Assembly (NCBI RefSeq): GCF_026410385.1
Contig: NZ_JAPMLT010000003.1
Span: forward strand, 124,001-188,000
Direction: 5' to 3'
DNA: 64,000 nucleotides
From: Tumebacillus lacus
GTDB lineage: Bacteria > Bacillota > Bacilli > Tumebacillales > Tumebacillaceae
Made by a program: the position numbers and the translations under genes. Below are positions 3,071 through 17,046 of the stretch, piece after piece. The notes under the pieces were generated by a model that was not told where the DNA came from, made no database searches, and saw only the letters and a list, made by a program, of their open reading frames with translations. How positions within the stretch are numbered: the stretch's first letter is position 1; each line of letters begins with the position of its first letter.

Positions 3071-3801
3071 GACTCCTCCCCCACGATCTTGAAGAAAATA
3101 TCGTCCATATGTACCAGTCCGGTCTGTTCCCGCAGTTCCTCCAGCGTTCCCAGCGCGTACAGTCTGCCTTTATAGATCACGCCGATCCGGTCGCACAGCT
3201 TTTCCACCTCGTGCATGATGTGCGTGGAGAGAATCACGCTCTTGCCCTCTTCCCGCAGCGACTCGATGGAGCGATGCACCGCACGGGCGGCAAACACATC
3301 CAGCCCCGCCGTCGGCTCGTCAAAGATCACCAAGGACGGGTCGTGCACCAACGCTCTGGCGATCGACACCTTCTGCTTCATCCCGGTGGAAAACCCGTTG
3401 GCCTGCCGATTTTGGAAATCGCCCATCTCGAACCGCTCGATCAGCTCGTCGATCCGCCGCTTCGCCGTCGCTTTGGGCACCCCGTGCACATCGGCGAAAA
3501 ACTGCAACTGCTCGCGGGGCGTAAACCGCTCATAGATCCCCGTCTCGTTGGACAGATAGCCGATCAATTGTCTGACCTCGTGGCTCTGGCTGACCGTGTC
3601 GTATCCCCCGACCGACACCCGTCCGGACGTCGGTTTCATCAACGTCGCGATCATTCTCAGCGTCGTCGTCTTGCCCGCTCCGTTTGGACCGAGCAGACCG
3701 AACACCTCGCCCGGACGCACGTCAAACGTCAGACGCTCCACGCCGACGACAGGACCCGTTTTGGTCTTGAACTCTTTGCGTACCTCTTGCACTTGCAACA
3801 T
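3067..3801 (-). CDS. ABC transporter ATP-binding protein (NatA-like)
   Basis: A 244-residue ATPase. I prefer ATG 3801 ([10 protein letters not shown]) because GGGGGAGGG lies just upstream; the frame extends about 11 codons further. Walker A is [16 protein letters not shown]. The signature is a NatA-type variant ([17 protein letters not shown]), Walker B is [12 protein letters not shown], and the H-loop is STHIMHEVE. It pairs with the permease whose start overlaps its stop. The ATPase belongs to the Na+ exporter/multidrug DRA-like branch, so NatAB is the nearest named model, but export of another substrate is possible. Confidence 0.87.
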
Positions 3802-3890
3802 CGTAACACCCTCCCCCTTCAACCAATCAACCATTCATACGAAAAGTCCCGCTCCAAGTTTCGCATGGAACGGGACTATTTGGCAAATGT

Positions 3891-4193
3891 CTATGAAACT
3901 TCCAACGCTTCCACAGCCACGACCGCGCGCATCCGTTTCCGCACAGACAAGATCGCCAAGACCACCGTCAAGCCGAGGAAGAGCAGCGTCTGCCACACAT
4001 GAATCCCCGTACCGAAGAACAAGGCGCTGGTCAGATCGGTCAAAGCCAGCGACAAAAACAGCGCTCCTCCCCAGAAATACACCGGGCTCATGCTCCGCTC
4101 CGTATCTCTGTACATCACGAACCGCGCCACAACCATCAAGGCACAGAATGTATAAAGAGCCGTCATCAAATAATGAAAGACCTGATAGGACAT
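3891..4193 (-). CDS. Small multi-pass membrane protein, unknown
   Basis: About 100 residues if it starts at ATG 4193 (MSYQVFHYLM). A GTG at 4208 is also in frame but leaves no room for the AAAGG ribosome site. Three hydrophobic segments are visible: LMTALYTFCALMVVARFV, FWGGALFLSLALTDL and LLFLGLTVVLAILSV. They are followed by a basic KRMR end. There is no recognised family. It lies upstream of the NatAB pair on the same strand and could be part of that unit. Confidence 0.6.
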   Translation of the reverse strand: MSYQVFHYLMTALYTFCALMVVARFVMYRDTERSMSPVYFWGGALFLSLALTDLTSALFFGTGIHVWQTLLFLGLTVVLAILSVRKRMRAVVAVEALEVS

Positions 4194-4303
4194 GTCCGAT
4201 TCACACACCTTTCTCTGTTTTATTTCTTTACGTATTTCTTTACGAATCTACCTATATAGACGCATGAAACGACGATTGGTTTCAGAAAATTTTATCCAAA
4301 AAT

Positions 4304-4332
4304 GAAAAAAAGTCCGCCATGAAGACGGACTT
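4304..4332 (-). terminator. Terminator of the recombinase-like gene
   Basis: On the minus strand AAGTCCG pairs with CGGACTT across a nine-base loop and is followed by seven T. It lies about 18 bases after the stop of the gene at 4351-5220. Confidence 0.85.
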
Positions 4333-4350
4333 GCTTCCTTGTAAACGTTC

Positions 4351-5220
4351 CTACAGATCGAGTGCCGAGATAAATTTTTGATATTCGTTCGACCGCACGC
4401 CACCCGCCGGCACCAACACTTCCAGCGAGTTGAGGTTTTTCAGACCGAGCTGCTGCGCCACGTGGCCGATGTCGATACCCTGTTCGATCATGTGCGCGGC
4501 CAAGGAGCGACGGATCGACGGGAGAGCGATATGCCCTTCGATCTTGGCATCTTTGGCCGTCTCGATGAACAGCAGTTGCAGGCGCGACACTTTCATCGGG
4601 CCTTTTTCATCGACAAACACGTAGTTCAATTTGTCTTTGCGGGAACGGATGTATTTTTTCAGCAAATCTTTCAGCTTGCGGGAGAAAAACACCAAGCGGT
4701 CGCGCTCCCCCTGTTTGTTGCGCACCATCAAGAACAGGTCGTCCCAATTGATGTCATCCTGTTGCATGCGGCACAATTCGTCGGGACGCAGTCCCAGTTC
4801 GTACAAGGACGTAAAGATCGCACGGCGTTTCACGTCGTTGCAGGCGATGATAAACCGCTTCATCTCGTCGATGGTCAGCGGACGCGGCATCGAGAGCACA
4901 TACGCGAGGCTCTCGGAGATCGTTTCATCCATCGCGGCCGACTCGCCCCGGTCTTCGAGAAACTTGTAAAAGTTTTTGACGGCGCGGAGTTTGCGGTAGA
5001 TCAACTTCTCCGATTTCCCCCCCTCGCGCATCTCTGTGCCAAAATCGTTAACGTCCTCTTCTGTCAGAGCGGCAAACGGCTTTTCCCGTTTGGCAAGAAA
5101 CTCGGCAAACTGCCGGATGTCGAGCAACATCCCCTGCACCGTACCCGGCGACTTCTTCTTCTCCTCCAGGTACTCTCCGAACGCCTTGATCTGAGCTTCG
5201 TGTTCAGTATACCCTGCCAT
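4351..5220 (-). CDS. Tyrosine recombinase-fold protein lacking catalytic residues
   Basis: A 289-residue protein with an N-terminal SAM-like core-binding domain (about 5-90) and a C-terminal integrase-like domain (about 110-289). Aligned by eye with XerD, the first arginine (R145 in ELGLRPDEL), the beta-hairpin lysine (K169) and the second arginine (R237 in SIRRSLAAH) are kept. The box II histidine is proline (P234), the LGH histidine is leucine (L260) and the nucleophilic tyrosine position is leucine (L269, in EVLVPAG). The only later tyrosine is Y280. It should therefore bind DNA but not cut it. It is a stand-alone gene with its own terminator, with no phage or excision genes nearby. Confidence 0.8.
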   Translation of the reverse strand: MAGYTEHEAQIKAFGEYLEEKKKSPGTVQGMLLDIRQFAEFLAKREKPFAALTEEDVNDFGTEMREGGKSEKLIYRKLRAVKNFYKFLEDRGESAAMDETISESLAYVLSMPRPLTIDEMKRFIIACNDVKRRAIFTSLYELGLRPDELCRMQQDDINWDDLFLMVRNKQGERDRLVFFSRKLKDLLKKYIRSRKDKLNYVFVDEKGPMKVSRLQLLFIETAKDAKIEGHIALPSIRRSLAAHMIEQGIDIGHVAQQLGLKNLNSLEVLVPAGGVRSNEYQKFISALDL

Positions 5221-5354
5221 GAGTTCCCCTCCACTTTACAATCTACCGTGTTATTTTGAACCAAAACGGCCGGGAAATGCAACACCCGCACTCTTTAGTA
5301 TAGTGATCGGCGAGGAGCCTCAGAACCAAATTTTATACCTCCTACTGAATTCCA

Positions 5355-5383
5355 GTGACGAAACGAGGCAACATTGGTATGAT
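5355..5383 (+). promoter_or_regulatory. Sigma-A-like promoter of queDEC
   Basis: GTGACG (5355-5360), a 17-base spacer, then TATGAT (5378-5383). The predicted transcript start lies near 5390, leaving a leader of about 35 bases. That is too short for, and shows no match to, a preQ1 riboswitch. Confidence 0.5.
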
Positions 5384-5424
5384 AGGATGTTGTATCTAAT
5401 GCTTACAGAAAAGAGGGGATTGCC

Positions 5425-5841
5425 ATGACTCAATCCGCTTACCATAACAAGAAAGTGTCGGTCACCAAGATCTTCACGTTCGACTCGGCTCATCGCCTCG
5501 ATGACTATATCGGCAAGTGCGCCAACCTGCACGGCCACACGTACAAATTGGAAGTCACGATCAAAGGCCGCACCGATCATCGCGGCATCGTCGTCGACTT
5601 TGGCGATATCAAGTCGATTGTGAACGAGAGGATCATCGGCCCGTATGACCACCGTTTCCTCAACGACCTGATGCCGTTCAACACGACGGCGGAAAACATG
5701 GTCGTTCATTTCTTTGAGCTGGTGGACAACCACCTGAAAGGGATCGAGGACGGCAACGAAGCAGTCCTGATGCGGATGCGTCTGTGGGAGACACCGACCG
5801 CTTATGCGGAGCTGACGCGGGAGGATTTCGATGCGTCTTAA
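5425..5841 (+). CDS. queD: 6-carboxytetrahydropterin synthase
   Basis: 138 residues of the 6-pyruvoyl-tetrahydropterin synthase/QueD fold. Visible residues are the zinc-binding histidines H23 (FDSAHRL), H36 and H38 (NLHGHTY), the catalytic C32 (GKCANLHGH), the D75-H76 pair (YDHRFLN), and the C-terminal glutamate in LWETPTAYAEL. It converts 7,8-dihydroneopterin triphosphate to 6-carboxy-tetrahydropterin, the first dedicated step to preQ0/queuosine. It starts at ATG 5425 behind AGAGGGG and overlaps queE by 11 bases. No queF or folE lies within this window. Confidence 0.95.
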   Translation: MTQSAYHNKKVSVTKIFTFDSAHRLDDYIGKCANLHGHTYKLEVTIKGRTDHRGIVVDFGDIKSIVNERIIGPYDHRFLNDLMPFNTTAENMVVHFFELVDNHLKGIEDGNEAVLMRMRLWETPTAYAELTREDFDAS

Positions 5842-6487
5842 CGAGATGTTTTTATCCATTCAAGGCGAGACGTCGACAGCCGGGCTGCCGACGATCTTCG
5901 TCCGTTTTACCGGGTGCAACCTGCGTTGCACGTGGTGTGACACCAAATATTCGTATTTTGAAGGCGACCCGATCACGCCCCTTGAAGTGATGGACAAGAT
6001 CCGTAACTTGAAATGCAAGCGCGTCTGCCTGACCGGGGGCGAACCGCTGATCCAGCCGCGCGCCGAGATGCAACAACTGCTCGACATGCTGGCGGCGGAA
6101 GGCTATGAAGTCTCGATTGAGACGGACGGCTCGATTGACATTTCCAAATATCAGTTGCATGACAAACAGCGCTTCATCGTCGACATGAAGCCGCCGTCCT
6201 CCGGGATGAGTGAAAAAATGCACTGGGAAAACCTGCGCCACATCGTGCCGACCCGCGACGAGATCAAGTTTGTCGTCGGCAGCCGCGAGGATTACGAGTG
6301 GTGCGTTCAACTGGTTCGGGAACATGACGTGGACCCGGCGAAAGGGTATCAGCTGGTGTTCTCGCCGGTATTTCGTCAGGTCGACCTGGAAGAGATGGTG
6401 GGCTGGATCTTGGCTGACGAACTGGATGCGCGCTTCCAGGTGCAGCTGCACAAAATCGTCTGGGACCCGGACAAGCGAGGAGTGTAA
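5831..6487 (+). CDS. queE: 7-carboxy-7-deazaguanine synthase, radical SAM
   Basis: 218 residues. The radical SAM cluster motif is C29-X3-C33-X2-C36 (GCNLRCTWCDT), preceded by the QueE hallmark LNEMFLSIQGE and followed by the SAM-binding CLTGGEPL. The enzyme rearranges 6-carboxy-tetrahydropterin to 7-carboxy-7-deazaguanine using SAM and Mg2+. Its start overlaps the end of queD and queC follows after a few bases, so the three genes form one coupled operon. Its length and order match the Bacillus-type queCDE locus, rearranged to D-E-C. Confidence 0.95.
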   Translation: MRLNEMFLSIQGETSTAGLPTIFVRFTGCNLRCTWCDTKYSYFEGDPITPLEVMDKIRNLKCKRVCLTGGEPLIQPRAEMQQLLDMLAAEGYEVSIETDGSIDISKYQLHDKQRFIVDMKPPSSGMSEKMHWENLRHIVPTRDEIKFVVGSREDYEWCVQLVREHDVDPAKGYQLVFSPVFRQVDLEEMVGWILADELDARFQVQLHKIVWDPDKRGV

Positions 6488-6491
6488 CCCG

Positions 6492-7202
6492 ATGAGCGAG
6501 ACGAAAAAAGCTGTGATCATCCTCTCCGGCGGCCTCGATTCGACCACCTGCATGGCGGCGGCCAAAGCGGAGGGCTACGAACTGTACCCGCTGACGTTCT
6601 GGTACGGGCAAAAGCAGGCCATCGAGCTGGAAGCGGCGAAAAGGGTCGCAGCCTACTACAAGGTGGCCGACCGTCACCGCATCGTCGATCTGAACGGCGT
6701 GATCAAAGGGTCTGCGTTGACCGATGCGGACAAAGAGATCCCGGTCCACCGGGGGGATGAGGAGATGCAGGCGGAGGTGCCGGTGACGTATGTGCCGGCC
6801 CGGAACATCATCTTCCTGTCGATCGCCTTGTCCTACTCGGAGGCGATCGGGGCGGACGCGATGTATATCGGCGTGAACGCGCTGGACTACTCCGGCTATC
6901 CGGACTGCCGGGCCGAGTTTATCGCGGCGTTCCAAGACGTGATCAACAAAGGCACCGCCGCCGGTGCGCACGGGGCCGGGATCCAGATCAAGACTCCGTT
7001 GCAGTTCCTCTCCAAAGCGGACATCGTCAAGCTCGGGAGCGAACTCGGAGCCCCGTTACAATTCAGCCACTCCTGCTACTTTGGCACCGACCCGTCGTGC
7101 GGCGTGTGCGACTCGTGCCTGCTGCGGATCAAAGGATTCCAAGAGGCGGGCGTGCCCGACCCGATCCGGTATGCGGTGGAGATTGAGTGGGACAAGAAAT
7201 AA
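6492..7202 (+). CDS. queC: 7-cyano-7-deazaguanine synthase
   Basis: 236 residues starting at ATG 6492 (MSETKKAVII) with GAGGAG upstream; the frame stays open into queE but that extension is not coding. It carries the PP-loop SGGLDST (residues 12-18) for ATP binding and a C-terminal four-cysteine zinc site (SCYFGTDPSCGVCDSC). QueC converts the carboxylate of CDG, via an adenylate and ammonia, to preQ0. It is the last gene of the queDEC operon and is followed within ten bases by a terminator. Confidence 0.95.
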   Translation: MSETKKAVIILSGGLDSTTCMAAAKAEGYELYPLTFWYGQKQAIELEAAKRVAAYYKVADRHRIVDLNGVIKGSALTDADKEIPVHRGDEEMQAEVPVTYVPARNIIFLSIALSYSEAIGADAMYIGVNALDYSGYPDCRAEFIAAFQDVINKGTAAGAHGAGIQIKTPLQFLSKADIVKLGSELGAPLQFSHSCYFGTDPSCGVCDSCLLRIKGFQEAGVPDPIRYAVEIEWDKK

Positions 7203-7204
7203 GA

Positions 7205-7244
7205 TGAAAAAAAGACCTTTGCCTGCATAGGCAAAGGTCTTTTT
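7205..7244. terminator. Bidirectional terminator after queC
   Basis: AAAGACCTTTGCC and GGCAAAGGTCTTT form a 13-bp stem around TGCATA, flanked by A- and T-runs. It serves queC and the convergent coiled-coil gene, whose stop it overlaps. Confidence 0.92.
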
Positions 7245-7557
7245 ACATGGTGGCCGCGATCTCCAACGCCATCTTTTCCGTCTCATTTTCCACCCGTCGC
7301 ATCGTTCTTTCCAACCCACCGACCCGGTCTGTCAGTTGAACGACCGAGACTTTCACAGCCTTGAGTTCCACTTGCACTTGTTCCAATTGCTCTTCCACCC
7401 GGTCTAGTCGAATCGCGAGTTGGCCGTTCATGTCATACATTTCAGTTCGAAGCCCTGTGACTTCATCTGTGATTTTCTTCATGATTCTCGCTTCACTGGC
7501 TTGTACGGTTTCGCCGATAATGCGACCCACCTGAACAAGCAATGCTTCGTTGGTCAT
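7243..7557 (-). CDS. Small coiled-coil protein, unknown function
   Basis: 104 residues, almost entirely heptad-patterned. It runs from an N-terminal amphipathic segment (EALLVQVGRIIGETVQASEARI) into long Leu/Val-spaced coils such as LDRVEEQLEQVQVELKAVKV and LTDRVGGLERTMRRVENE. There is no signal peptide or membrane segment. This pattern is common in small Bacillota proteins of unknown role. It is monocistronic with ATG 7557. Confidence 0.65.
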   Translation of the reverse strand: MTNEALLVQVGRIIGETVQASEARIMKKITDEVTGLRTEMYDMNGQLAIRLDRVEEQLEQVQVELKAVKVSVVQLTDRVGGLERTMRRVENETEKMALEIAATM

Positions 7558-7729
7558 CGTGCTCGGTCACCCCTTCGCGTGAAATTCCGCTGTTGATTCC
7601 AGACTATCACGGTCAATTGAACATTAACAACATTAAAAACAAAGCAATAAAAAAGAACCCCCCATAAACCGATGGAATTTTCGTACTATTTATGACTTGT
7701 CAGTACAAAAAGAACAGGGAGGGGTTCAC

Positions 7730-9532
7730 ATGAACGACACGGCACAGACTGTCACGCTGGATGGAGCAGGCTGGTCGACCATCGGCATCTTGGGCCTCGT
7801 CCTGATCCTGTTGGTCACCAACCGCGTTCGGCTCGATCTGATCGGGATATTTATCCTGCTCGCGCTCGGGTTGAGCGGGATCGTGGAAGAAAAAGAGCTG
7901 TTTTCCGGCTTCGGCAGTGAAGCGGTGATCGTGATCGCCGCGATGCTCGCCATCGGCGAGGCACTCGTGCAAAGCGGCGTCACAGATCGCCTGTCCAGCC
8001 GCATCGCCAAACACAGCGGCACATCGGAAATGCGGCTCGTGCTGCTGATGATGCTGGTCGCCGGTCTCGCTTCGACGTTTATCAGCGACCTCGCCGTCGT
8101 CTCGATCCTGCTGCCGGTCATGCTCGGGTTTGAAGAGCGGCTCGGCATCCGCCCCGCCCGGCTGTTGCTTCCGGTCGCCGTGGCCTCGATGCTCGGCGGG
8201 CTGATCTCGATGGTCGGCAGTTCCTCGAACATCGTCGCGAACCAAGTCCTCAAGGAGTTTGGGCACGAAGGCTTGTCCCTGTTTGCCATCGCTCCGGTCG
8301 GACTGACCTTGCTCGCAGCCGGGATGCTGTTTGTCTGGCTGTTCGGGCGCTTTTTCCTGCCGAGCGGCGCACGCGAGTCCCGCGTGAAAGCAAAGGCGCT
8401 CGGGGTGCGCGAGTATCTGAGCGAACTGCACATCCCCGCCGGTTCGACATGGGCGGGCCGAACGCTTCGGGACGTGTCTTTCTTTCGCGACAACGGTCTG
8501 AACGTCGCCCGCGTCCTGCGCGACGGCGAGCCGGTGCTCTATCCGAAAGCGAGCACAAAACTGCGCACCGACGACGTCCTGCTCGTCCAAGCCGGTCAAG
8601 AAGAGCTGCTCAAACTGCGCAGCACCTCCGACTACTCGGTCCACCCGCAGGTGCAGAAAAGCCTCGAAGAGACCGACCTCGCCCTCGCCGGGGAAGCGAT
8701 CGTCCGCCAAGGCTCGCAGTTCATCGGCCGCACGCTGCGGGAGCTCGTGTTTCGCCAGCTCTATGACGTGACGGTGCTCGCCCTCTGGCGCGACGGCAAG
8801 ACGATCACGCAGCGCATCGCTGACCTGCCCTTGCGCACCGGCGACATGCTGCTCCTGCAGGGCCCGCCGGAAAACATGCGCGATCTGCAGGAAGAAGAAG
8901 GTCTGCTGATGGTCTCCGAGACCCCGCACCGTCCCAAGACGCGCTCGCAAGGCTGGGTGGCGGTCGTCATCCTGCTCCTCGCCTTGCTGACGGCGGGGCT
9001 CGGCCTGATGCCGATGTCGGTCGCCGGGATGATCGCCGTCGGGCTGCTCGTCGTCACGCGCATCCTGAGCATGAATCAGGTGTACCGCGCCATCGACTGG
9101 CAGATCCTCGTCTTCGTCGCGGCGATGATCCCGCTCGGCACGGCGATGAGAGAGACGGGCGTGATCGCGCTGGTTTCGCAGCAGATCGTCGACGTGTTCG
9201 GCAGCTACGGACCGTTGGCCGTGCTGGCCGCCTCCTTCTGGCTGGCCGCGCTGACCACCCAGATCCTGAGCAATACGGCCACCGCCCTCCTGCTCTCCCC
9301 CGTCGTGATCGGCGCGGCGACGCAGCTCGGCGTCGATCCGACCCCGTTTGTCGTCGCCGTCATCGCTGCCGTGTCCGCTTCGCCGATCACCTACGTCTCG
9401 CACAAAGTGTTCCTCGTGATCATGGCACCGGGCGGCTACTGCTACATGGACTATGTAAAGATCGGCCTGCCGATGACCCTGCTCTTTTTCGCCCTCACGA
9501 TGCTCGTCGTACCGTGGCTGTGGCCGATGTGA
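7730..9532 (+). CDS. SLC13/DASS-family permease with two TrkA-C domains
   Basis: 600 residues from ATG 7730, behind GGGAGGGG; the open frame starts 11 codons earlier without a ribosome site. The N-terminal half has about six helices, including GLASTFISDLAVVSILLPV and GGLISMVGSSSNIVANQ. Two central RCK_C/TrkA-C domains (about 215-390) carry repeated motifs (AGRTLRDVSFFRDNGLNVAR; IGRTLRELVFRQLYDVTVLA). A second helical half ends with an ILSNTATALLLSPV hairpin. SLC13-type proteins move dicarboxylates, sulfate or other anions with Na+; TrkA-C domains bind nucleotides or small ligands and may gate transport. The substrate is not readable. Confidence 0.87.
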   Translation: MNDTAQTVTLDGAGWSTIGILGLVLILLVTNRVRLDLIGIFILLALGLSGIVEEKELFSGFGSEAVIVIAAMLAIGEALVQSGVTDRLSSRIAKHSGTSEMRLVLLMMLVAGLASTFISDLAVVSILLPVMLGFEERLGIRPARLLLPVAVASMLGGLISMVGSSSNIVANQVLKEFGHEGLSLFAIAPVGLTLLAAGMLFVWLFGRFFLPSGARESRVKAKALGVREYLSELHIPAGSTWAGRTLRDVSFFRDNGLNVARVLRDGEPVLYPKASTKLRTDDVLLVQAGQEELLKLRSTSDYSVHPQVQKSLEETDLALAGEAIVRQGSQFIGRTLRELVFRQLYDVTVLALWRDGKTITQRIADLPLRTGDMLLLQGPPENMRDLQEEEGLLMVSETPHRPKTRSQGWVAVVILLLALLTAGLGLMPMSVAGMIAVGLLVVTRILSMNQVYRAIDWQILVFVAAMIPLGTAMRETGVIALVSQQIVDVFGSYGPLAVLAASFWLAALTTQILSNTATALLLSPVVIGAATQLGVDPTPFVVAVIAAVSASPITYVSHKVFLVIMAPGGYCYMDYVKIGLPMTLLFFALTMLVVPWLWPM

Positions 9533-10273: not shown

Positions 10274-10759
10274 ATGTCTCTTTATGATCTGTCCGCAACG
10301 CGCATCAACGGGGAGGAGCAATCGCTCGCCGACTACAAAGGCAAGGTCTTGCTGATCGTCAACACGGCGAGCAAGTGCGGGTTTACGCCGCAGTACAAAG
10401 GCCTGCAAGCGCTGTATGACCAGTATCAGGAGCAAGGATTTGAAGTCCTCGGCTTCCCCTGCAACCAGTTTGGAAATCAGGAGCCGGGCGGGAGCGACGA
10501 CATCAACTCGTTCTGCGAGATCAATTTTGGCGTGGCTTTCCCGCTGTTTGAGAAGGTCGATGTCAAAGGGCCGAACATCCACCCGGTGTTCAAGCATCTG
10601 ACGGAGCAGGCCGGCGGTTTTCTCACCAAGACGATCAAATGGAACTTCACCAAGTTCCTCATCGACCAAAACGGCAACGTGGTGGAGCGCTATGCACCGC
10701 AGACCGATCCGCAAAAGATTGCGTCCGATGTGGAAAAGCTGCTCGGAGCCGGTCGCTGA
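10274..10759 (+). CDS. bsaA: Glutathione peroxidase family thiol peroxidase
   Basis: 161 residues. It has the active-site motif NTASKCGFTPQ with C35 in place of selenocysteine, the GFPCNQFGNQEPG box (glutamine and a possible resolving cysteine) and the KWNFTKFLID motif holding the tryptophan-asparagine pair. Bacterial members generally use thioredoxin and reduce organic hydroperoxides in the cytosol. It starts at ATG 10274 after GAGAGGGG. It is followed after three bases by ohrR, an arrangement suggesting peroxide-inducible expression in place of the usual ohr gene. Confidence 0.93.
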   Translation: MSLYDLSATRINGEEQSLADYKGKVLLIVNTASKCGFTPQYKGLQALYDQYQEQGFEVLGFPCNQFGNQEPGGSDDINSFCEINFGVAFPLFEKVDVKGPNIHPVFKHLTEQAGGFLTKTIKWNFTKFLIDQNGNVVERYAPQTDPQKIASDVEKLLGAGR

Positions 10760-10762
10760 GTC

Positions 10763-11209
10763 ATGAGTGACGATCAACTGCGACTCGATCAGATGCTCTG
10801 CTTTGCCATCTATGCCTGTTCGCGGGAGATAACCAAGTTGTACCGGCCGCTGCTCGACGAGGTCGGGCTGACCTATCCGCAGTATCTGGTCATGCTCGTG
10901 CTCTGGGAGGAACGGTCGGCGACGGTGAAGCATCTCGGTGAACGGCTGTATCTCGACTCCGGGACGCTGACTCCTCTGCTCAAACGACTGGAGCAGTCCG
11001 GGCTCGTCTCCCGCGCGAGATCGCGGGACGATGAGCGCGTGGTGGTGATCTCCCTTACCGAGCAAGGAGCAGCGCTCAAACAGCGAGCCAACAAAATCCC
11101 CCACGAACTGCTCTGCAAAAGCAACCTCCAGCCGGAGGAGTTCCTGCGCCTGAAAGGCGAGTTTGAATCCCTCTTGCACCGCATGCATCACATGCGGCAA
11201 ACTGACTGA
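10763..11209 (+). CDS. ohrR: Organic hydroperoxide sensor, MarR family
   Basis: 148 residues closely matching the Bacillus OhrR pattern: LRLDQMLCFAIYACSREITKLYRPLL at the start and the winged helix with YLDSGTLTPLLKRLEQSGLV and DERVVVISLT. The peroxide-sensing cysteine is C13, at the position of C15 in B. subtilis OhrR. A second cysteine, C19, is nearby and could allow a two-cysteine mechanism. It is a repressor released by oxidation with organic hydroperoxides. It is the second gene of the peroxidase operon and likely controls it through the palindrome at 10223. Confidence 0.93.
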   Translation: MSDDQLRLDQMLCFAIYACSREITKLYRPLLDEVGLTYPQYLVMLVLWEERSATVKHLGERLYLDSGTLTPLLKRLEQSGLVSRARSRDDERVVVISLTEQGAALKQRANKIPHELLCKSNLQPEEFLRLKGEFESLLHRMHHMRQTD

Positions 11210-11234
11210 CGAGATCCTGACTGCGATCTCCCGA

Positions 11235-11277
11235 TAAAAAAGACGAAAGGCTGACAGATCTCTCTGTCAGCCTTTCG
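11235..11277. terminator. Terminator closing the tiny-peptide operon and ohrR
   Basis: CGAAAGGCTGACAGA (11244-11258) pairs over 15 bases with TCTGTCAGCCTTTCG (11263-11277). The six A on the plus strand at 11235-11240 become a T-run on the minus strand, so it chiefly ends the minus-strand operon. The plus-strand stop of ohrR is also close. Confidence 0.9.
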
Positions 11278-11318
11278 CGTTGCTCTATGGATCTGGATCA
11301 GACGACCCGCCACTCTCA

Positions 11319-11348
11319 TTACACGACTACCAGCCAATCTTTACGCAT
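11319..11348 (-). CDS. Minigene 4: nine-residue peptide MRKDWLVVV
   Basis: ATG to TAA in ten codons, preceded by AAAGGGGGTGAAATC, nearly the same ribosome site as minigene 1. It is the divergent member of the set: the MR start, the tryptophan and the aliphatic Leu-Val-Val-Val run are kept. An extra residue precedes the tryptophan (KD instead of E) and the EN tail is absent. It is the last gene before the terminator. Confidence 0.75.
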   Translation of the reverse strand: MRKDWLVVV

Positions 11349-11396
11349 GATTTCACCCCCTTTCGCGGAGTCAAATCAATGCCTGGTCCGTGCTTC

Positions 11397-11429
11397 TTAG
11401 TTTTCCACGATGACGATCCACTCGCGCAT
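11397..11429 (-). CDS. Minigene 3: ten-residue peptide MREWIVIVEN
   Basis: Eleven codons, ATG to TAA, with an ideal AAGGAGGTG ribosome site six bases upstream. It differs from minigene 1 at one residue (Ile for Val) and at synonymous positions, while the sequence between minigenes is unrelated. That pattern supports selection on the peptide. Confidence 0.85.
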   Translation of the reverse strand: MREWIVIVEN

Positions 11430-11482
11430 TCCGGACACCTCCTTCATTCAATCAGTCAGCGAACAACGACACACCAGGCCTC

Positions 11483-11515
11483 TTAGTTCTCCACCACGAT
11501 GATCCACTCGCGCAT
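11483..11515 (-). CDS. Minigene 2: ten-residue peptide MREWIIVVEN
   Basis: Eleven codons, ATG to TAA, behind GAGGAGGTG with a spacing of six bases. It shares M-R-E-W-I and V-E-N with minigenes 1 and 3, with Ile at position 6. Glutamate and valine codons differ silently from the other copies (GAG for GAA, GTG for GTT). Confidence 0.85.
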   Translation of the reverse strand: MREWIIVVEN

Positions 11516-11579
11516 CCAAAACACCTCCTCAACCGACATATGTAGTCACGAGATCCCGAACGCTCGGACCGACTTCTGA

Positions 11580-11612
11580 TTAGTTTTCAACCACAACGAT
11601 CCACTCGCGCAT
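11580..11612 (-). CDS. Minigene 1: ten-residue peptide MREWIVVVEN
   Basis: Eleven codons, ATG to TAA. Its ribosome site AAGGGGGTGA contains the TGA stop of the MFS gene, so its translation is coupled to the exporter. It is the first of four similar minigenes spaced 81-97 bases apart. The N-terminus is charged and the centre is Trp plus branched-chain residues, with an Asn end. No signal or leader region is present. Function unknown; a modified and exported peptide is my inference from the radical SAM and MFS neighbours. Confidence 0.85.
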   Translation of the reverse strand: MREWIVVVEN

Positions 11613-11616
11613 GATG

Positions 11617-12888
11617 TCACCCCCTTGTCAGAGTACTCGCGTCTTCTTTTTGCGTTTGCAATTTGCCTTTCAGCCAGAGGAACAGCACCCCTGACGAGAC
11701 CACGCAGATCACCGTCAACAGGTAGCCGCCGTAATGGCTGGGGATAAATCCGCCGATCGCCGAGAACAGCGGCAGCGAGATCCCGTAGGCGAGGCGCGAC
11801 ATCGACAGCCAGGAAGCAAAGACGCGGCCGCGCACTTCCGGTTTCGAATAGGTCATCAGCGACGTCTCGGTGATGACGTTGACGCCCGATTGGAAGATGT
11901 TCGCGACGAGCAACACCGTCAGGAACAGGTACCAATTTTGGATCGAAAACATCACGCCAAGGCCGATGCCGTACAGCATGTTGAACGGGAAGTAGATCTT
12001 GAAGAAAGCGGTGTCATCAAACGGCTTGCTCTTGAAGCGTCGCTTGATGTACCACGCGCCGATCACGTAGGCGATCGCCGTCACCGAGTAGCCGATCCCA
12101 ATGCCCGTGTTGCCTTTATCCAGCTCGTTGAGCACGTACAGCGAGAACAGAATGTAGACAAAGCCGAGGCAGAAGTCGCGCCACGCTTGCAACCAGAACA
12201 CGCTGACGAGCTGCGGACGGGAGCGGACAAAGTCGATGCCTTCCTTCACCTGCTTCAGATACGGCACGCGCGCTGCACCGGCAGGCTTTGGACGCGGCGT
12301 GTATTTCATCATCCCGATAAAGACGGCGGAGACGAGATACGAGAAGGCGTCAAAGTACAGGATCGCCAGCACGCCGACCCAGTCGGCGAGCAGTCCGCCG
12401 AGGGCGCTCGCCACCACCATCGTCGTCGAGGTGAGCAAGGCAAACGACGAGGTGGCTTGGATCAGATTTTTCTCGTTGAGGATCTCCGGGATCACTGACG
12501 AGCGGGCCGGAGCAAACGTGGAGGAGACAAAGCTCGCCGCCGCGATGCAGCCGTAGATCACCCACAAGGATTCGATCTGCGTGCCCCAGATGATGCCGAG
12601 CGTAAACACGAAACGGATGATGTCCACCCAGATCATCAGGTGCTTTTTGTTCCAGCGGTCGACCAGAGGGCCGAGGAAGATGCCGCCGAACAGCACCGGC
12701 AGGACGCTGGCGATAAACATGCCGCCCACCGAACCGGCGGAAGGATTGAGCCCGTAGACGATGCCGATCAGAGCGATCGTCTTGAACCAGTCGCCAAACT
12801 GGGAGACGAGTTGACCGAGGTAGAGATAGGTGAAATTGCGATTTTTAAAGGGGGAAGGCAGTTGCTCCCCCGCTGTTTGTGCAGACAT
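11617..12888 (-). CDS. MFS exporter (MFS_3/EntS-like) of the tiny-peptide operon
   Basis: 423 residues with about 12 membrane helices. I take ATG 12888 (MSAQTAGEQL) because GGAGGG precedes it; a GTG three codons earlier leaves no spacing. The loop LGPLVDRWNKKHLMIWVD is the typical MFS motif A region, and the FAPARSSVIPEIL segment fits the MFS_3 exporter branch (macrolide and siderophore exporters). It starts 14 bases after the radical SAM gene ends. Its stop lies inside the ribosome site of the first minigene, so it is locked between enzyme and peptides and is the likely exporter of their product. Confidence 0.88.
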   Translation of the reverse strand: MSAQTAGEQLPSPFKNRNFTYLYLGQLVSQFGDWFKTIALIGIVYGLNPSAGSVGGMFIASVLPVLFGGIFLGPLVDRWNKKHLMIWVDIIRFVFTLGIIWGTQIESLWVIYGCIAAASFVSSTFAPARSSVIPEILNEKNLIQATSSFALLTSTTMVVASALGGLLADWVGVLAILYFDAFSYLVSAVFIGMMKYTPRPKPAGAARVPYLKQVKEGIDFVRSRPQLVSVFWLQAWRDFCLGFVYILFSLYVLNELDKGNTGIGIGYSVTAIAYVIGAWYIKRRFKSKPFDDTAFFKIYFPFNMLYGIGLGVMFSIQNWYLFLTVLLVANIFQSGVNVITETSLMTYSKPEVRGRVFASWLSMSRLAYGISLPLFSAIGGFIPSHYGGYLLTVICVVSSGVLFLWLKGKLQTQKEDASTLTRG

Positions 12889-12902
12889 GGGCGGCACCCT
12901 CC

Positions 12903-14276
12903 CTACTCGACGGAGATCAGCTCCAGATTTTCATGCCACTGGCGGTCTTCCTGCGCGCGGGTCACGTAGCCCATGTAGATCTCGCGCTGGTCGGCCGGGA
13001 GCAGTTCGACCATCATAAACATGTAATATTTTTTGCCTTCCTCGGTGAGCACCAGTTGGTTCTCCTCTTTGCGGACCAGGCCGAGCGATTCAAACTCCGC
13101 CAGTTTGTCGAGGTAGAACGGGTCGATCCGGTCTTTGATCGAGTTCAGGTAGTCGAGCGAGAGCGTCATCTTTTTCGGGAAGTAGATCAAGCCTTTTTCC
13201 ATCGCGTGGTAATCGTACGCCTGCATGACCGGCAGTTCGCCCGCCTCGACCGCGTGGATGTACGCGTCGGTGGTGACGTGGTTGTTGTGCGCCATCCCGG
13301 CGAGGTAGGAACCTGCCGCTTGGCCGCAGCCGATGTACTCGTCTTCGTAGACACCGTAGATCGTCTCGCCGAACACCCAGGACTTGTGCTTGGCATCCGA
13401 GCGGGTGAAGGTGTAGATGTAGTTTTGCTCATAGCCGTTTTCCAGTGCCCACCGGCGGATGTGCTCTTGCATCTCCAACTTGTCATTGGCCGACGGCGGC
13501 ATCTCGATCTTGCCGTTTTTGATCAGGTTGAGGAACCCTTTGGCGGTGACGAGATACTCCAGCGGGTACGCGTCAAACGAGGTGCAGCCGAGCTCTTTCG
13601 CTTGATCGAGGTCTTGCTGCAGGCGTTCGAGCGTCTGACCCGGCAGTTGGTAGAGCAGGTCCATGTTGTACGCTTTGAAATATTTCTCCGCCATGTTGCG
13701 GACGTTGCGCACTTCGTCGAGCGTAGCGGTCAGGTTGAAGATCTTGCGGTACTCCGGGTCGAACGTCTGCACCCCGAAGGAGATCCGGTTGATCCCGCCC
13801 GCTGCCATCGCCTTAAATTTATCTTCCGTCGCGCTCTTGGCTTCCACCTCGAACGTCCACTCATAGTCGTCAGCCAGCTTGAAGTTTTCGCGGATCGTTG
13901 AAGTTAAGCGTGTAATCATATCCGGCGTCAGCACCGACGGCGTGCCGCCTCCGACGTAGATCGAGCCCAGTTCGAACTGTTGGATGTACGGAGACGATCC
14001 AATCATCTTCAACTCTTTAATCAAAGCGTTGACGTACGGTTCGAGCTTTTCTTGATACGCGGTCGACTTGATGAACGGGCAGAAGGTGCAGATCGTGTCG
14101 CAGAACGGGATGTGCACGTAGAGCGCTTTCTTGCCGGGGCGATAGGCGTCCGACTGCGAAAGGAACTGCGTCACGCGTGCCGCCGGCTCCGGAATGTCCT
14201 TGATAAACGGGTACAGATAGTTCCACATGCTGGGCAGTTTTTTGTACGGCAGTTCACGCTTTTGACCATCGAGCAT
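12903..14276 (-). CDS. HemN/HutW-like radical SAM enzyme
   Basis: 457 residues from ATG 14276, which sits behind AGAGGGGG; a GTG at 14300 would lie at the predicted transcript start. The cluster motif is C59-X3-C63-X2-C66 within ALYVHIPFCDTICTFCP, followed by VGGGTPS near residue 110, the ISFGVQTFD strand and a C-terminal HemN-type winged domain (LTLSLDYLNS to LVLTEEGKKYY). Named relatives are coproporphyrinogen dehydrogenase HemN, HemW, the heme-opening ChuW/HutW enzymes and class C radical SAM methyltransferases of RiPP pathways. No haem gene is nearby. Its operon partners are an exporter and four tiny-peptide genes, so peptide modification is plausible but unproven. Confidence 0.85.
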   Translation of the reverse strand: MLDGQKRELPYKKLPSMWNYLYPFIKDIPEPAARVTQFLSQSDAYRPGKKALYVHIPFCDTICTFCPFIKSTAYQEKLEPYVNALIKELKMIGSSPYIQQFELGSIYVGGGTPSVLTPDMITRLTSTIRENFKLADDYEWTFEVEAKSATEDKFKAMAAGGINRISFGVQTFDPEYRKIFNLTATLDEVRNVRNMAEKYFKAYNMDLLYQLPGQTLERLQQDLDQAKELGCTSFDAYPLEYLVTAKGFLNLIKNGKIEMPPSANDKLEMQEHIRRWALENGYEQNYIYTFTRSDAKHKSWVFGETIYGVYEDEYIGCGQAAGSYLAGMAHNNHVTTDAYIHAVEAGELPVMQAYDYHAMEKGLIYFPKKMTLSLDYLNSIKDRIDPFYLDKLAEFESLGLVRKEENQLVLTEEGKKYYMFMMVELLPADQREIYMGYVTRAQEDRQWHENLELISVE

Positions 14277-14308
14277 TGTGATAGGGCCCCCTCTGTTCAC
14301 TTGTTGTT

Positions 14309-14337
14309 TTTATATTGGTAAAATTGGGAATTTTTAA
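14309..14337 (-). promoter_or_regulatory. Promoter of the radical SAM-MFS-peptide operon with embedded palindrome
   Basis: On the minus strand TTAAAA (14337-14332), 17 bases, then TATAAA (14314-14309). AAAATT-CCC-AATTTT, an inverted repeat at 14320-14334, fills most of the spacer and could be an operator. The predicted start near 14302 supports ATG 14276 as the first codon of the enzyme. Confidence 0.5.
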
Positions 14338-14420
14338 TTTCTTGCTGTTTTCAACTCCCTTTGCATTACCATTTATACAACGATGAGCAGACGGATATCA
14401 CCAATTTGAAAAAATAATTT

Positions 14421-14453
14421 AAAAAACCACGACACCCATAAGGTATCGTGGTT
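14421..14453 (-). terminator. Terminator of the ymfF-ymfH pair
   Basis: On the minus strand AACCACGATACC pairs with GGTGTCGTGGTT (one mismatch) around TTATG and is followed by six T. It lies about 20 bases after the protease stop. Confidence 0.85.
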
Positions 14454-14474
14454 GATCATTGTTTAACCGCATGA

Positions 14475-15770
14475 TTAATGCTTTTTCGGCAGGACCAGCG
14501 AAGCGGAGAAGCATTCCGGGCGCAGATGTTCACGCAGACGCTGATTGACCTGATCCAGCGTCAGACTCTCCAACACCGGCACCGTCTCGAAATAGTCGAT
14601 CCCGCGCAGGTTGTAGGCGGAGAACTGGCGGCAGATCGCGCGCGGCGAGTCGAGGTCGGACAGCGACTGGCCGATCAGCTTGCGTTTGGCCCGTTCAAAG
14701 TCTTCCGCCGAGATGCCTGTATCCGCCGCTTCTGCGAAAGCAGCGGTGATCGCCTCCAGCAGCTTTTCCGGCTCCGGGGAGTTGCCGCCAAAGACGGAAT
14801 GGGCGTAGAAGGGCGTTACGTCGTACGACCAGCCGAACTGCTTGTCGACCAAGCCGCTCTCATAGAGGCGGTTGAACAGCGTCGAGCTTTTGCCAAACAA
14901 CGCCTCCAGACCGATGGCCGTCGCATACTCGTTGACGAGCAGGTCGTTGCCCTTCAGTTTGGAGCTCTTGATGTCTTTGTAGCCAAAGTTGATTTTCGGG
15001 ATCGAGACGACCATCTCCACTTGCACGCGCGGTTCCGCGACTTCCTCCCCTTCTTCCGGGAGCAGGCGCTGGATGTCCGGCTGACGGGTGAAGTCTTTTT
15101 GCGCTTGGTTGTCGCGCACGGCGGCATGGATCGCCGCCGGGTCGACGTCGCCGACGATGACGAGGTTCATGTTGCTCGGGTGATAGAACGTGTTGTAGCA
15201 CTTGTAGAGCGTCTCTTTGGTGATCTTCGAGATGCTTTCGACGGTGCCGGCGATGTCGATGTTGATCGGGTGCTGTTTGTAGAACCCGCGCAGCAGGTTG
15301 AAATAGACCACCCAGCCCGGGTTGTCGTCGTACATGCGGATCTCCTGACCGATGATGCCTTTTTCTTTTTCGACGTTTTCGTCGGTGAAATACGGGTCCT
15401 GGACGTAGTTGAGCAGGATGTCGAGGTTTTCCTTCACGGCGATGGTCGACGAAAACAGATAGGCGGTCATGTCAAACGACGTGAAGGCGTTCGGCGAGGC
15501 GCCGTATTTGGCAAACAGGTTGAACACGTCTTCGCCGCTCTCCTGCTCGAACATCTTGTGTTCCAGGAAATGGGCGATGCCGTCCGGCACGACGGTGCGT
15601 TCGGTCTCGCCGGGCACGACAAACTCCCGGTCGATGGATCCGTATTTGGTGGTAAACAGAGCGAACGTCTGGGCAAATCCCGGTTTGGGAATCACGTACA
15701 CGTCCAGTCCGTTTTCGATCTGTTCGTGATAGGCGGCCAGTTGCAGTTGCTCATTGCGAATCTCATGCAT
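14475..15770 (-). CDS. ymfH: M16 zinc protease, catalytic subunit (YmfH-like)
   Basis: 431 residues from ATG 15770 (MHEIRNEQLQ), with GGGGAGAAG upstream. The inverted zinc motif HFLEH is at residues 67-71, with the downstream glutamate in the NVEKEKGIIGQEI helix. This is the active member of the paired M16B proteases. It overlaps the upstream ymfF-like gene by eight bases. Such pairs act as heterodimeric cytosolic peptidases that cut peptides, and some are found with peptide natural-product loci. Here they follow their usual housekeeping pairing, but note that the tiny-peptide operon is the next gene set. Confidence 0.9.
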   Translation of the reverse strand: MHEIRNEQLQLAAYHEQIENGLDVYVIPKPGFAQTFALFTTKYGSIDREFVVPGETERTVVPDGIAHFLEHKMFEQESGEDVFNLFAKYGASPNAFTSFDMTAYLFSSTIAVKENLDILLNYVQDPYFTDENVEKEKGIIGQEIRMYDDNPGWVVYFNLLRGFYKQHPINIDIAGTVESISKITKETLYKCYNTFYHPSNMNLVIVGDVDPAAIHAAVRDNQAQKDFTRQPDIQRLLPEEGEEVAEPRVQVEMVVSIPKINFGYKDIKSSKLKGNDLLVNEYATAIGLEALFGKSSTLFNRLYESGLVDKQFGWSYDVTPFYAHSVFGGNSPEPEKLLEAITAAFAEAADTGISAEDFERAKRKLIGQSLSDLDSPRAICRQFSAYNLRGIDYFETVPVLESLTLDQVNQRLREHLRPECFSASLVLPKKH

Positions 15771-17046
15771 GGGCTTCTCCCCCCTTGTCTCGCAGCATGT
15801 AGACGGTGTCGAGCACGACGCCTTTGGCGATGCGCACGACATCATCGACGGTGACTTTTTGGAACGCTTCGATCATCTCTTCGCGGGTGCGGACCCGGCC
15901 TGCGATCAGCCCGTTCAGGTGCATGTCCGCAGCACCGGTCGCCGAGTCGCCCGCCGTGCGGTAGTCGTTGACCAGCGAGGAGATCGTGAACGAAAACTCT
16001 TCGTCGTTGATCTCGCCGCGGCGCATCGCGTCGAGCTGCTCCTTGATGATCGTCAGCGCTTTTTCAAAATGGCTCACTTCGACGCCCGACATCACGTACA
16101 GCACGCCTTTGAGCGGATCGATGCGCGAGGTGGCGTAGTAGGCGAGGCTGTGCTTTTCACGGACGTTGACGAACAGTTTGGAGTGCGGGTAGCTGCCGAA
16201 GATGCCGTTGAAGACCACCAGCGCCGGATAATCGTCAGACGGCATCTCGACGTTCGTCCACATGCCGATGTTCAGCTTGCCTTGATTGACGTCGAGGCGG
16301 TCGACGACCTGACGTTCTGTGCGCGCTTCGTGCAGGATCTGCACCGGGCGGAACTCGGTGACCGGTTCGCGTTCCATGTTGAACGTCTCGAACATGTGCT
16401 GATAGACTTGTTCCGGATCGACGTCGCCGATGACATAGATATGTATGGGCGCTGTTTTGAGCAGCTGTTGGTAACGGTCATAGAGCGTTTTGCCGTCGAT
16501 CTTTGCCAATTCTTCTTCGCGGCCGAGGCGCGGGATGCTGTAGGGCTCGCCTTTGGTCAGTTCCTGCAGGCAGCGCAGGTTGGCGTAGGACATTTTGTCG
16601 TCGAGCACGGCGTTGATGCGCTTTTTGTGCTGGTCGATCTCCGCTTTGACGTTCTCGGCGAGAAACGCACCGTTTTCGGTGAGCGGTTTCATGATCACGT
16701 CAGACAGGATGCCGAGCGCTTTTTCAAACAAAGGCTCATCGGTGCTGAGATACTTTTCGTTCGGGACCTGCATCGTAAAATCAACGACGTGACGCTCGCC
16801 TTTTTTGTCGATGGTGCCGGACAGTGCGGCGCCGTACAGATCGTCAAGCGCCATCTGGAGCTTCTCCGGGGTAGAATACTGCTCGGAGCCGCGCATCAGC
16901 ACGTACGGCAGCAAGGCGGTCGGCGCAGCGGTCTCCTCTTGCAGATCGGTCGTCAGCGTGACGACGATCGAGCTTTTTTTGAACATCTGCGTAGGCAGGA
17001 CGTGGACGCTGATGCCTCGTTCTTCACGCGTTTGAAACGTCTTCAT
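15763..17046 (-). CDS. ymfF: M16 peptidase-like partner without zinc motif (YmfF-like)
   Basis: 427 residues. The fold matches M16B, but the HXXEH segment is replaced by LLPYVLMRGSEQYSTPE, so it cannot bind zinc. The C-terminal half has the R/Y-type substrate-binding region (KHSLAYYATSRIDPLKGVLYVMSGV). As in B. subtilis YmfF/YmfH and PqqF-like pairs, the inactive subunit likely completes the proteolytic chamber for the active partner, with which it is translationally coupled. It starts at ATG 17046 after GGATGGGG. Confidence 0.88.
   Translation of the reverse strand: MKTFQTREERGISVHVLPTQMFKKSSIVVTLTTDLQEETAAPTALLPYVLMRGSEQYSTPEKLQMALDDLYGAALSGTIDKKGERHVVDFTMQVPNEKYLSTDEPLFEKALGILSDVIMKPLTENGAFLAENVKAEIDQHKKRINAVLDDKMSYANLRCLQELTKGEPYSIPRLGREEELAKIDGKTLYDRYQQLLKTAPIHIYVIGDVDPEQVYQHMFETFNMEREPVTEFRPVQILHEARTERQVVDRLDVNQGKLNIGMWTNVEMPSDDYPALVVFNGIFGSYPHSKLFVNVREKHSLAYYATSRIDPLKGVLYVMSGVEVSHFEKALTIIKEQLDAMRRGEINDEEFSFTISSLVNDYRTAGDSATGAADMHLNGLIAGRVRTREEMIEAFQKVTVDDVVRIAKGVVLDTVYMLRDKGGEAHA

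Follow-up and report, generated by a model that had tools for sequence, protein, structure and literature searches.

Peptide minigenes beside a HemN-like radical SAM gene and an MFS gene suggest an undescribed family of very small modified peptides

Organization of the operon

A stretch of 64,000 nucleotides from Tumebacillus lacus (contig NZ_JAPMLT010000003.1, positions 124,001 to 188,000; hereafter the window) carries on its minus strand a compact operon made up of a HemN-like radical S-adenosylmethionine (SAM) gene, abbreviated rSAM, a major facilitator superfamily (MFS) transporter gene and four minigenes, each preceded by its own Shine–Dalgarno (SD) sequence. The rSAM gene (12903..14255) encodes 450 aa from an ATG start (MLDGQKREL) to a TAG stop, an alternative GTG start being possible at 14300. 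The MFS gene (11617..12888; 423 aa; PF07690 and PF05977) starts at the ATG at 12888, 14 bases past the rSAM stop, and ends with the TGA at 11619-11617. This TGA is overlapped by ACAAGGGGGTGACATCATG, the SD of minigene 1 (11580..11612, MREWIVVVEN). Minigene 2 (11483..11515, MREWIIVVEN) follows with the 8-base SD AGGAGGTG, minigene 3 (11397..11429, MREWIVIVEN) with the 9-base SD AAGGAGGTG and minigene 4 (11319..11348, MRKDWLVVV) with the SD GGGGGTGA, a sequence that minigene 1 shares and that scores 5 bases in both. A terminator-like hairpin of 16 pairs followed by a T run (11243..11278, minus strand) closes the operon.

An initial annotation, made from the sequence alone, had described much of this arrangement. 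The four tiny frames encode exactly the peptides it quoted, each has an SD of its own, and both the 14-base spacing and the MFS stop within the minigene 1 SD were seen again. Its operon with a promoter and a terminator stood as far as gene order and the closing hairpin are concerned; the promoter did not, as a strict sigma-70 scan found none on the minus strand 5′ of the rSAM gene. A second terminator-like hairpin, of 13 pairs, lies on the minus strand at 14425..14453, between an M16 peptidase gene (Pfam) and the rSAM gene, so that the operon looks bounded at both ends. The region contains five terminator-like sites, not above the shuffle mean of 3.6 (sd 1.7), and the hairpin calls therefore rest on stem length and place rather than on number.

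Conservation and coding signature of the minigenes

Relatives of the rSAM were searched for in 61 genomes (the window's own and its relatives), in genome contigs, in 398 genomes of the class and 398 of the phylum, and in plasmids; labels beginning with G (genomes) and L (loci) are our own. Loci with an rSAM of at least 44% identity were taken as clade A, which comprises 12 loci in at least five genera: the window, G001–G006 of the same family, Alteribacillus persepolensis, G363, G204, G240 and a Cytobacillus kochii plasmid. These hold 15 rSAMs, with two copies in three genomes. The family is rare yet scattered in the genomes sampled and occurs once on a mobilizable plasmid, that of C. kochii. 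In the class sample, 11/398 genomes matched at E 1e-60 or better, one of which (G339) holds only a member of the sister clade B described below; the single match in the phylum sample at E 1e-55 (1/398) was the window's own genome, and family and order samples around G204/G240 and G363 yielded no new loci. Viral contigs gave no match, and a clade B query found none in phages; the C. kochii query retrieved four partial Listeria phage records (29–30%).

Short SD-led frames in which a Trp is followed by aliphatic residues occur in every one of the 12 clade A loci. The initial annotation had named operon relatives that lack the minigenes as the observation that would speak against it; across the genera sampled the opposite was seen. 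Examples are MNKWIAVEWIAVEPQWISVEPLWLPVVPVEA in G001, MIKEWLTVVEA (twice, with six further peptides) in G004, MEKNWIIAVERNWIVVQERNWIIVAA in G005, MRTEWLVV in Alteribacillus, MSNEWISVKNEWIAV in two copies in G363, MRQVNEWVAL in G204, MRQSTEWFTV in G240 and MKKEWVALKNEWVAL in C. kochii, at a place without a gene in the distributed (and incomplete) gene table. From 40 Trp-containing rows we kept 32 peptides, dropping four alternative starts of frames already counted (L036 10492, L037 9727, L044 10061, L057 8400) and four chance-like frames (L043 10924, L034 2362, L034 5285, L057 8334). The curated peptides have 8–35 residues and 55 Trp sites, contain no Cys and no Tyr, and follow the pattern W-[ILVF]-x-[VIL]. 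Position +1 is always aliphatic or Phe (I 40, L 11, V 3, F 1), +2 is S, I, A, P, V, T or L, and +3 is V, I or L at 51/55 sites (V 42, I 6, L 3, other 4), while Glu stands at −1 at 27/55 sites. Two features go beyond the initial annotation: W-[IL]-x-V is the conserved unit, of which a single peptide often holds two to four, and the peptides of the sister clade end in Trp.

The minigenes sit at differing places, which marks them as genes rather than a fixed leader. In the window they form the 3′ end of the operon; in G001–G003 they run on the opposite strand and converge on the MFS gene; in G004–G006 one minigene lies between the second MFS and second rSAM genes and the others between the two rSAM genes; and in the five loci outside the window's family they lie 5′ of the rSAM. 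All peptides of these last loci stop exactly at +3 of their final unit, so that W-[ILVF]-x-[VL], there preceded by Glu, is the smallest common core. In L036, one minigene-like frame (10492-10240) continues through the next SD into the following minigene (MREWLSIVNVRLLRRSFMKGGGNMREWILVGVTIE), which suggests how arrays of minigenes might turn into multi-unit peptides.

Several counts set the minigenes apart from chance frames. Among the 39 SD-preceded frames of 6–14 aa on both strands of the window, the longest SD matches are those of minigenes 2 (8 bases) and 3 (9 bases), while minigenes 1 and 4 reach just 5 bases on the same scale. An SD followed by M-x-E-W-[I/L/M] occurs at three places in the 4.18 Mb genome, all within the operon, and a reversed control gave none there and one match each in G005, G014 and G028. 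We read 17 of the 20 places with this pattern, leaving aside L096, L098 and L101 as repeats of G000 and G006 places; those other than minigenes open frames of 55–504 aa, except one 11-aa frame in G029. The latter (L084, G029:C3:299543) is an SD-led frame of 11 codons, MREWLCKWVLA; its genome has no clade A rSAM, and the frame may be due to chance. An automatic count of SD-led frames with the Trp motif in the non-coding parts of the 12 loci gave 33, a number that takes in the chance-like frame L034 5285 (one of two observed in L034), whereas 200 dinucleotide shuffles averaged 0.88 and never exceeded 4.

The minigenes also change as coding sequences do. In 11 hand-picked pairs of like minigene peptides, the rate of change at synonymous sites exceeded that at nonsynonymous sites in nine. 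Within the window, minigenes 1 and 2 differ at 3.0 of 5.5 synonymous and 1.0 of 21.5 nonsynonymous sites, minigenes 1 and 3 at 2.5 of 5.5 and 1.5 of 21.5, and minigenes 2 and 3 at 1.5 of 5.3 and 2.5 of 21.7. Elsewhere, the MREWIIVAA copies of G004 and G005 differ by 2.0 changes and the G363 pair by 1.0, in both cases synonymous only; G003a and G003b differ at 11.0 of 17.7 synonymous and 9.0 of 57.3 nonsynonymous sites, and G004b and G004c, also among the 11 pairs, are identical.

The MFS gene is also linked to the rSAM. At E 1e-80 or better, the MFS protein has relatives at eight places in six of the eight genomes tested (the window's own and seven relatives), and all eight places adjoin a clade A rSAM, so that this MFS family looks dedicated to the enzyme. 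A coarse comparison of neighbours, which took the longest frame per place and in GC-rich loci picked antisense frames, so that neighbours could be missed, found no gene other than rSAM and MFS common to all clade A loci. In G005, a fragment of a third rSAM copy (G005:C3:201140-201328; L037 13141-13329) adjoins the second MFS gene.

The enzyme family and its sister clade

In the window rSAM, Pfam recognizes only Radical_SAM (PF04055). The best NCBIfam model is TIGR04107 HutW, matched over nearly the full length at 220.2 bits against a cut-off of 400. HemW scores 155.9 against 205.4 and HemN 150.1 against 324.95, and all 17 NCBIfam matches fall under their curated cut-offs. Only HemN (1olt) and NocN (9p2u) come up as sequence relatives in the PDB at E 0.001 or better. 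An AlphaFold model aligns with 1olt over 398 residues (Z 30.5, rmsd 4.3; next entry Z 13.8), a predicted fold that bears out the HemN-like call of the initial annotation. With a mean pLDDT (predicted local distance difference test) of 70.7 and weak stretches at 1-15, 54-65, 233-239, 276-304 and 437-450, the model was not used for claims about the active site.

The motif CX3CX2C (C52, C56, C59) supplies the only Cys residues invariant in the 15 rSAM sequences. In the available part of PMC12871812, NocN contacts its second SAM (SAM-II) through Tyr34, Tyr96, Arg153, Asp196 and Ser225; in alignments read by eye the first four correspond to Tyr46, Tyr/Phe100, Arg157 and Asp199 here, so that four of the five contacts are kept. 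We take the enzyme to carry a single [4Fe-4S] cluster and probably to bind SAM at a second site. HemN keeps several of these contacts, however, and the match therefore fits two SAMs without pointing to one particular reaction. A SPASM-type cross-linker (of triceptides, sactipeptides and others) was considered and rejected, as Pfam gave no SPASM match and the 15 sequences contain no further invariant Cys.

A sister group of HemN-like rSAMs, clade B, is 28–36% identical to the window rSAM. Tree support is 99/97 for clade A, 100/98 for clade B and 100/100 for both together against 20 other HemN-type sequences of relatives (20 of the 23 loci outside the two clades; L012, L014 and L018, cut off or with stops, were omitted). 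A small frame ending in Trp is found in eight of nine clade B loci. One of these, L038 (G000:C20:314000-330000), is found some 184 kb from the window in the same genome, where a second HemN-like rSAM gene (8378-7002) is accompanied by two SD-led frames (6885-6781 and 6616-6587) encoding MENQPIIWKNVEPIIWKNAAEPIIWNNEVAPIIW and MERNILIIW, in which the motif is reversed and Trp comes last. An Alicyclobacillus plasmid encodes MRDIVWDIVW. In L039, L040, L041 and L059 the peptides have 50–54 residues, end in SEW and can be aligned over their length. L039 (G000:C24:108000-122000; 2358-9436) holds the third HemN-like rSAM of clades A and B in the window's genome, with a 50-aa precursor-like peptide ending in SEW.

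Each of the four SEW clusters also holds a B12-type rSAM gene, 72–82% identical to the L041 copy, whose nearest NCBIfam model is ApyD, an enzyme of ribosomally synthesized and post-translationally modified peptides (RiPPs), at 277 bits against a cut-off of 750; L039 carries a second B12-type rSAM (Pfam). The SEW peptides resemble ordinary leader–core RiPP precursors and thereby support peptide substrates for the whole enzyme family. Plasmids of Glaesserella and Xenorhabdus encode the 23–24-residue peptides MENAIELF...NNVAW and MESAMELF...LCMW. Their clusters (L062 1204-4834 and L064 5450-10789) combine this ME[NS]A[IM]ELF...W peptide with a SAM (AdoMet) decarboxylase, the HemN-like rSAM, a P450 or an ornithine decarboxylase, and an MFS protein, and could carry out aminopropyl or polyamine chemistry on the peptide. 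No Trp-ended candidate was seen at the Klebsiella clade B locus, where an ISL3 transposase gene and IS1 remnants (Pfam) surround the rSAM and a short P450 frame. Seven precursor candidates were scanned, and none scored above the cut-off of any Pfam or NCBIfam family.

A possible leaderless pathway and its alternatives

We consider it fairly probable that the operon encodes a leaderless, minigene-encoded pathway resembling those of RiPPs, in which the rSAM modifies WIxV units and the MFS protein exports the product. Our comparison supports the similar reading of the initial annotation, which had proposed leaderless precursors or signals of 9–10 residues that are modified and exported. Translation of a minigene, or of one W-[IL]-x-V unit within a tandem-repeat peptide, would directly yield a substrate of the right size, with no leader attached. 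The unit itself would be recognized by the HemN-type rSAM, which would act on its invariant Trp, most likely through class C chemistry in which a second SAM donates a C1 unit to the indole ring. Trimming of the peptides, or cutting of the repeats, would then fall to housekeeping peptidases, and the small product would leave through the partner MFS protein and may serve as a secreted bioactive or signal molecule. One trait of RiPP systems, an encoded precursor gene beside a modifying enzyme and conserved together with it, has its candidate counterpart in 12/12 clade A loci, and nine of the 11 minigene pairs show the coding signature. On a broader view, we lean towards seeing here a new class of leaderless RiPPs in Bacillota, in which 8–10-codon minigenes or W-[IL]-x-V arrays would be the whole substrate of a HemN-type two-SAM enzyme, the MFS protein would be the sole other common part, and the sister branch, in Bacillota and Gammaproteobacteria, would handle Trp-ended peptides.

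A number of observations weigh against this pathway. The minigene peptides have no leader, and those of 8–12 residues leave no room for one; Pfam finds only PF04055 in the window rSAM and no RiPP recognition element. No peptidase gene emerged as common to all clade A loci in the coarse comparison. Ser225 of NocN is replaced by Asp228, invariant in 15/15 sequences, so that the second SAM may sit differently, and the fold and several SAM contacts are common to HemN itself, so that C1 transfer is not singled out from chemistry based on hydrogen abstraction. In the coding test one pair goes the other way: the two changes between G005b and G006b are both nonsynonymous (V to I), with synonymous sites unchanged.

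Very short precursors have been described before, and so have HemN-like RiPP enzymes. The class C methylases NosN, NocN and TbtI share with the present enzyme the HemN fold, CX3CX2C and, for NocN, four of five SAM-II contacts, and known members place the C1 unit on sp2 carbons, NosN and NocN at an indole-derived group (PMC12871812, available part). The substrate of NosN and NocN is a large modified thiopeptide, on whose side ring they act, whereas the candidate substrates here are free peptides of 8–35 residues, and NocN Ser225 is Asp in clade A. The heme-degrading rSAM methyltransferases ChuW/HutW provide the best NCBIfam model, but at 220 bits against 400, and the enzymes described here differ from them in their neighbourhood of peptide genes and an MFS gene. 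Biarylitides are defined in part by a pentapeptide precursor with Tyr and by a P450; none of the 32 peptides contains Tyr, and the gene table of the C. kochii locus, which is incomplete, lists no P450. Their precursor is the smallest reported for a RiPP in the available part of PMC12951456, and the likeness lies in the pairing of a very small precursor gene with a single enzyme for cross-linking or tailoring; as far as that text goes, they use a P450 and form a Tyr–His link, whereas here we find an rSAM, a Trp–aliphatic unit, several gene copies and tandem repeats. The TVG pathway (TvgA/TvgB), as described in the available part of PMC9062424, also pairs an rSAM with a precursor of repeated four-residue units bearing Val, which TvgB converts to cyclopropylglycine; it differs in that the rSAM group of TvgB binds up to three clusters, the units are TVGG, and peptidase/transporter and oxidase genes adjoin. 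The clade B clusters also have a related HemN-like rSAM, an MFS gene nearby and a small Trp-bearing peptide gene, yet their Trp is C-terminal (SEW, W, IIW/IVW), the N-terminal part is mostly longer, and several add B12-rSAM, P450 or AdoMet decarboxylase genes. We found no description of the trio of rSAM, MFS and minigenes in the open-licence PubMed Central literature, a scope that leaves out most subscription journals, and the rSAM–minigene pairing in distant relatives suggests an undescribed family of very small modified peptides.

It is possible, though somewhat doubtful, that the same pathway runs with no C1 transfer, the enzyme forming a cross-link or a desaturation instead, for example between Trp and the +1 or +3 aliphatic residue, or changing Val in the manner of TvgB. 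The near-invariant +1 and +3 residues fit recognition of the unit but also a Trp–aliphatic cross-link, and an indole methylase would not obviously need them; hydrogen abstraction is performed by HemN itself (PMC12871812) and TvgB works on repeated TVGG units (PMC9062424), according to the available parts of these sources. The window rSAM, on the other hand, has only three invariant Cys and no Pfam SPASM domain. Peptide cross-linking rSAMs are known mostly with SPASM auxiliary clusters. We think it unlikely that the peptide is a scaffold from which Trp, together with the neighbouring Glu, is modified and excised to give a small molecule or cofactor derived from Trp, in the way that precursors release PQQ and mycofactocin. 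Glu precedes Trp at about half the sites (27/55), sister clade peptides end in Trp (SEW in four loci) and some sister clusters bring P450, AdoMet decarboxylase or ornithine decarboxylase genes, but the −1 Glu is less conserved than +1 and +3, in five loci the peptides stop at +3, and the coarse comparison showed no dedicated peptidase common to the loci.

That the minigenes are unmodified secreted signal peptides, with the rSAM doing another job, appears distinctly improbable. Short hydrophobic signals of 8–10 residues do exist in Bacillota, yet rSAM and minigenes occur together in 12/12 loci, a usual secretion signal would not fit into peptides this short, and the coarse test revealed no regulator gene common to the loci. 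Regulatory leader peptides (attenuators or ribosome stallers, for instance sensing Trp) would account for the five loci in which the frames precede the rSAM, and trp leader peptides do place Trp codons in very short SD-led frames. In the window, however, the minigenes come after the last gene and before the terminator-like hairpin, in G001–G003 they are on the opposite strand, no Rfam match occurs within 10700-14800, and the aliphatic residues are conserved as well as Trp; on position, strand and the absent Rfam match we rejected an attenuator or RNA element, which we regard as very improbable. Scarcely more credible is a heme-pathway enzyme (HemN, HemW or ChuW/HutW) with the minigenes as chance neighbours: HutW is indeed the best NCBIfam model, but all 17 matches are under the curated cut-offs, the tree places clades A and B apart from the 20 other HemN-type sequences, and each of seven family genomes has further HemN-type matches. 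Scores under cut-offs and a separate clade led us to reject it.

If the leaderless pathway is correct, it would be among the smallest peptide natural-product systems, with two proteins and genes of 30 bases, hidden from annotation. Gene callers and RiPP miners usually pass over genes of 8–15 codons, and such systems may therefore go unseen elsewhere. An enzyme of HemN type that works without a leader and reads four-residue units would be useful for peptide engineering and for understanding how HemN-like enzymes diversified. The family also links several clusters, some on Gram-negative plasmids and one now annotated as a heme enzyme. The system is small enough for direct testing, for which one enzyme, one exporter and synthetic 9-mers suffice.

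Beyond the shared genes, the five clade A loci that do not belong to the window's family all have a DinB-superfamily gene (Pfam) directly after the MFS gene (L034 5250-5717, L056 8987-9433, L057 4945-5487, L060 8604-9107 and L058 5017-5526), convergent in L057 and L058. A tblastn search with three of the DinB proteins, covering the six other Tumebacillus-family loci and not the window, found none. DinB proteins include thiol transferases, and a role in self-protection or tailoring is possible. Upstream of the window rSAM, beyond the 13-pair hairpin, lie two adjoining M16 peptidase genes (14475-17046; Pfam). M16 relatives occur near the rSAM genes in L036, L037 and L044, with no match in the other eight loci; given this absence and the hairpin that divides them from the operon, we rejected M16 peptidases as dedicated proteases. 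Elsewhere in the window, at 5831-7199, are adjoining queuosine-synthesis genes, one encoding QueC (Pfam) and the other a radical SAM protein that by reading resembles QueE.

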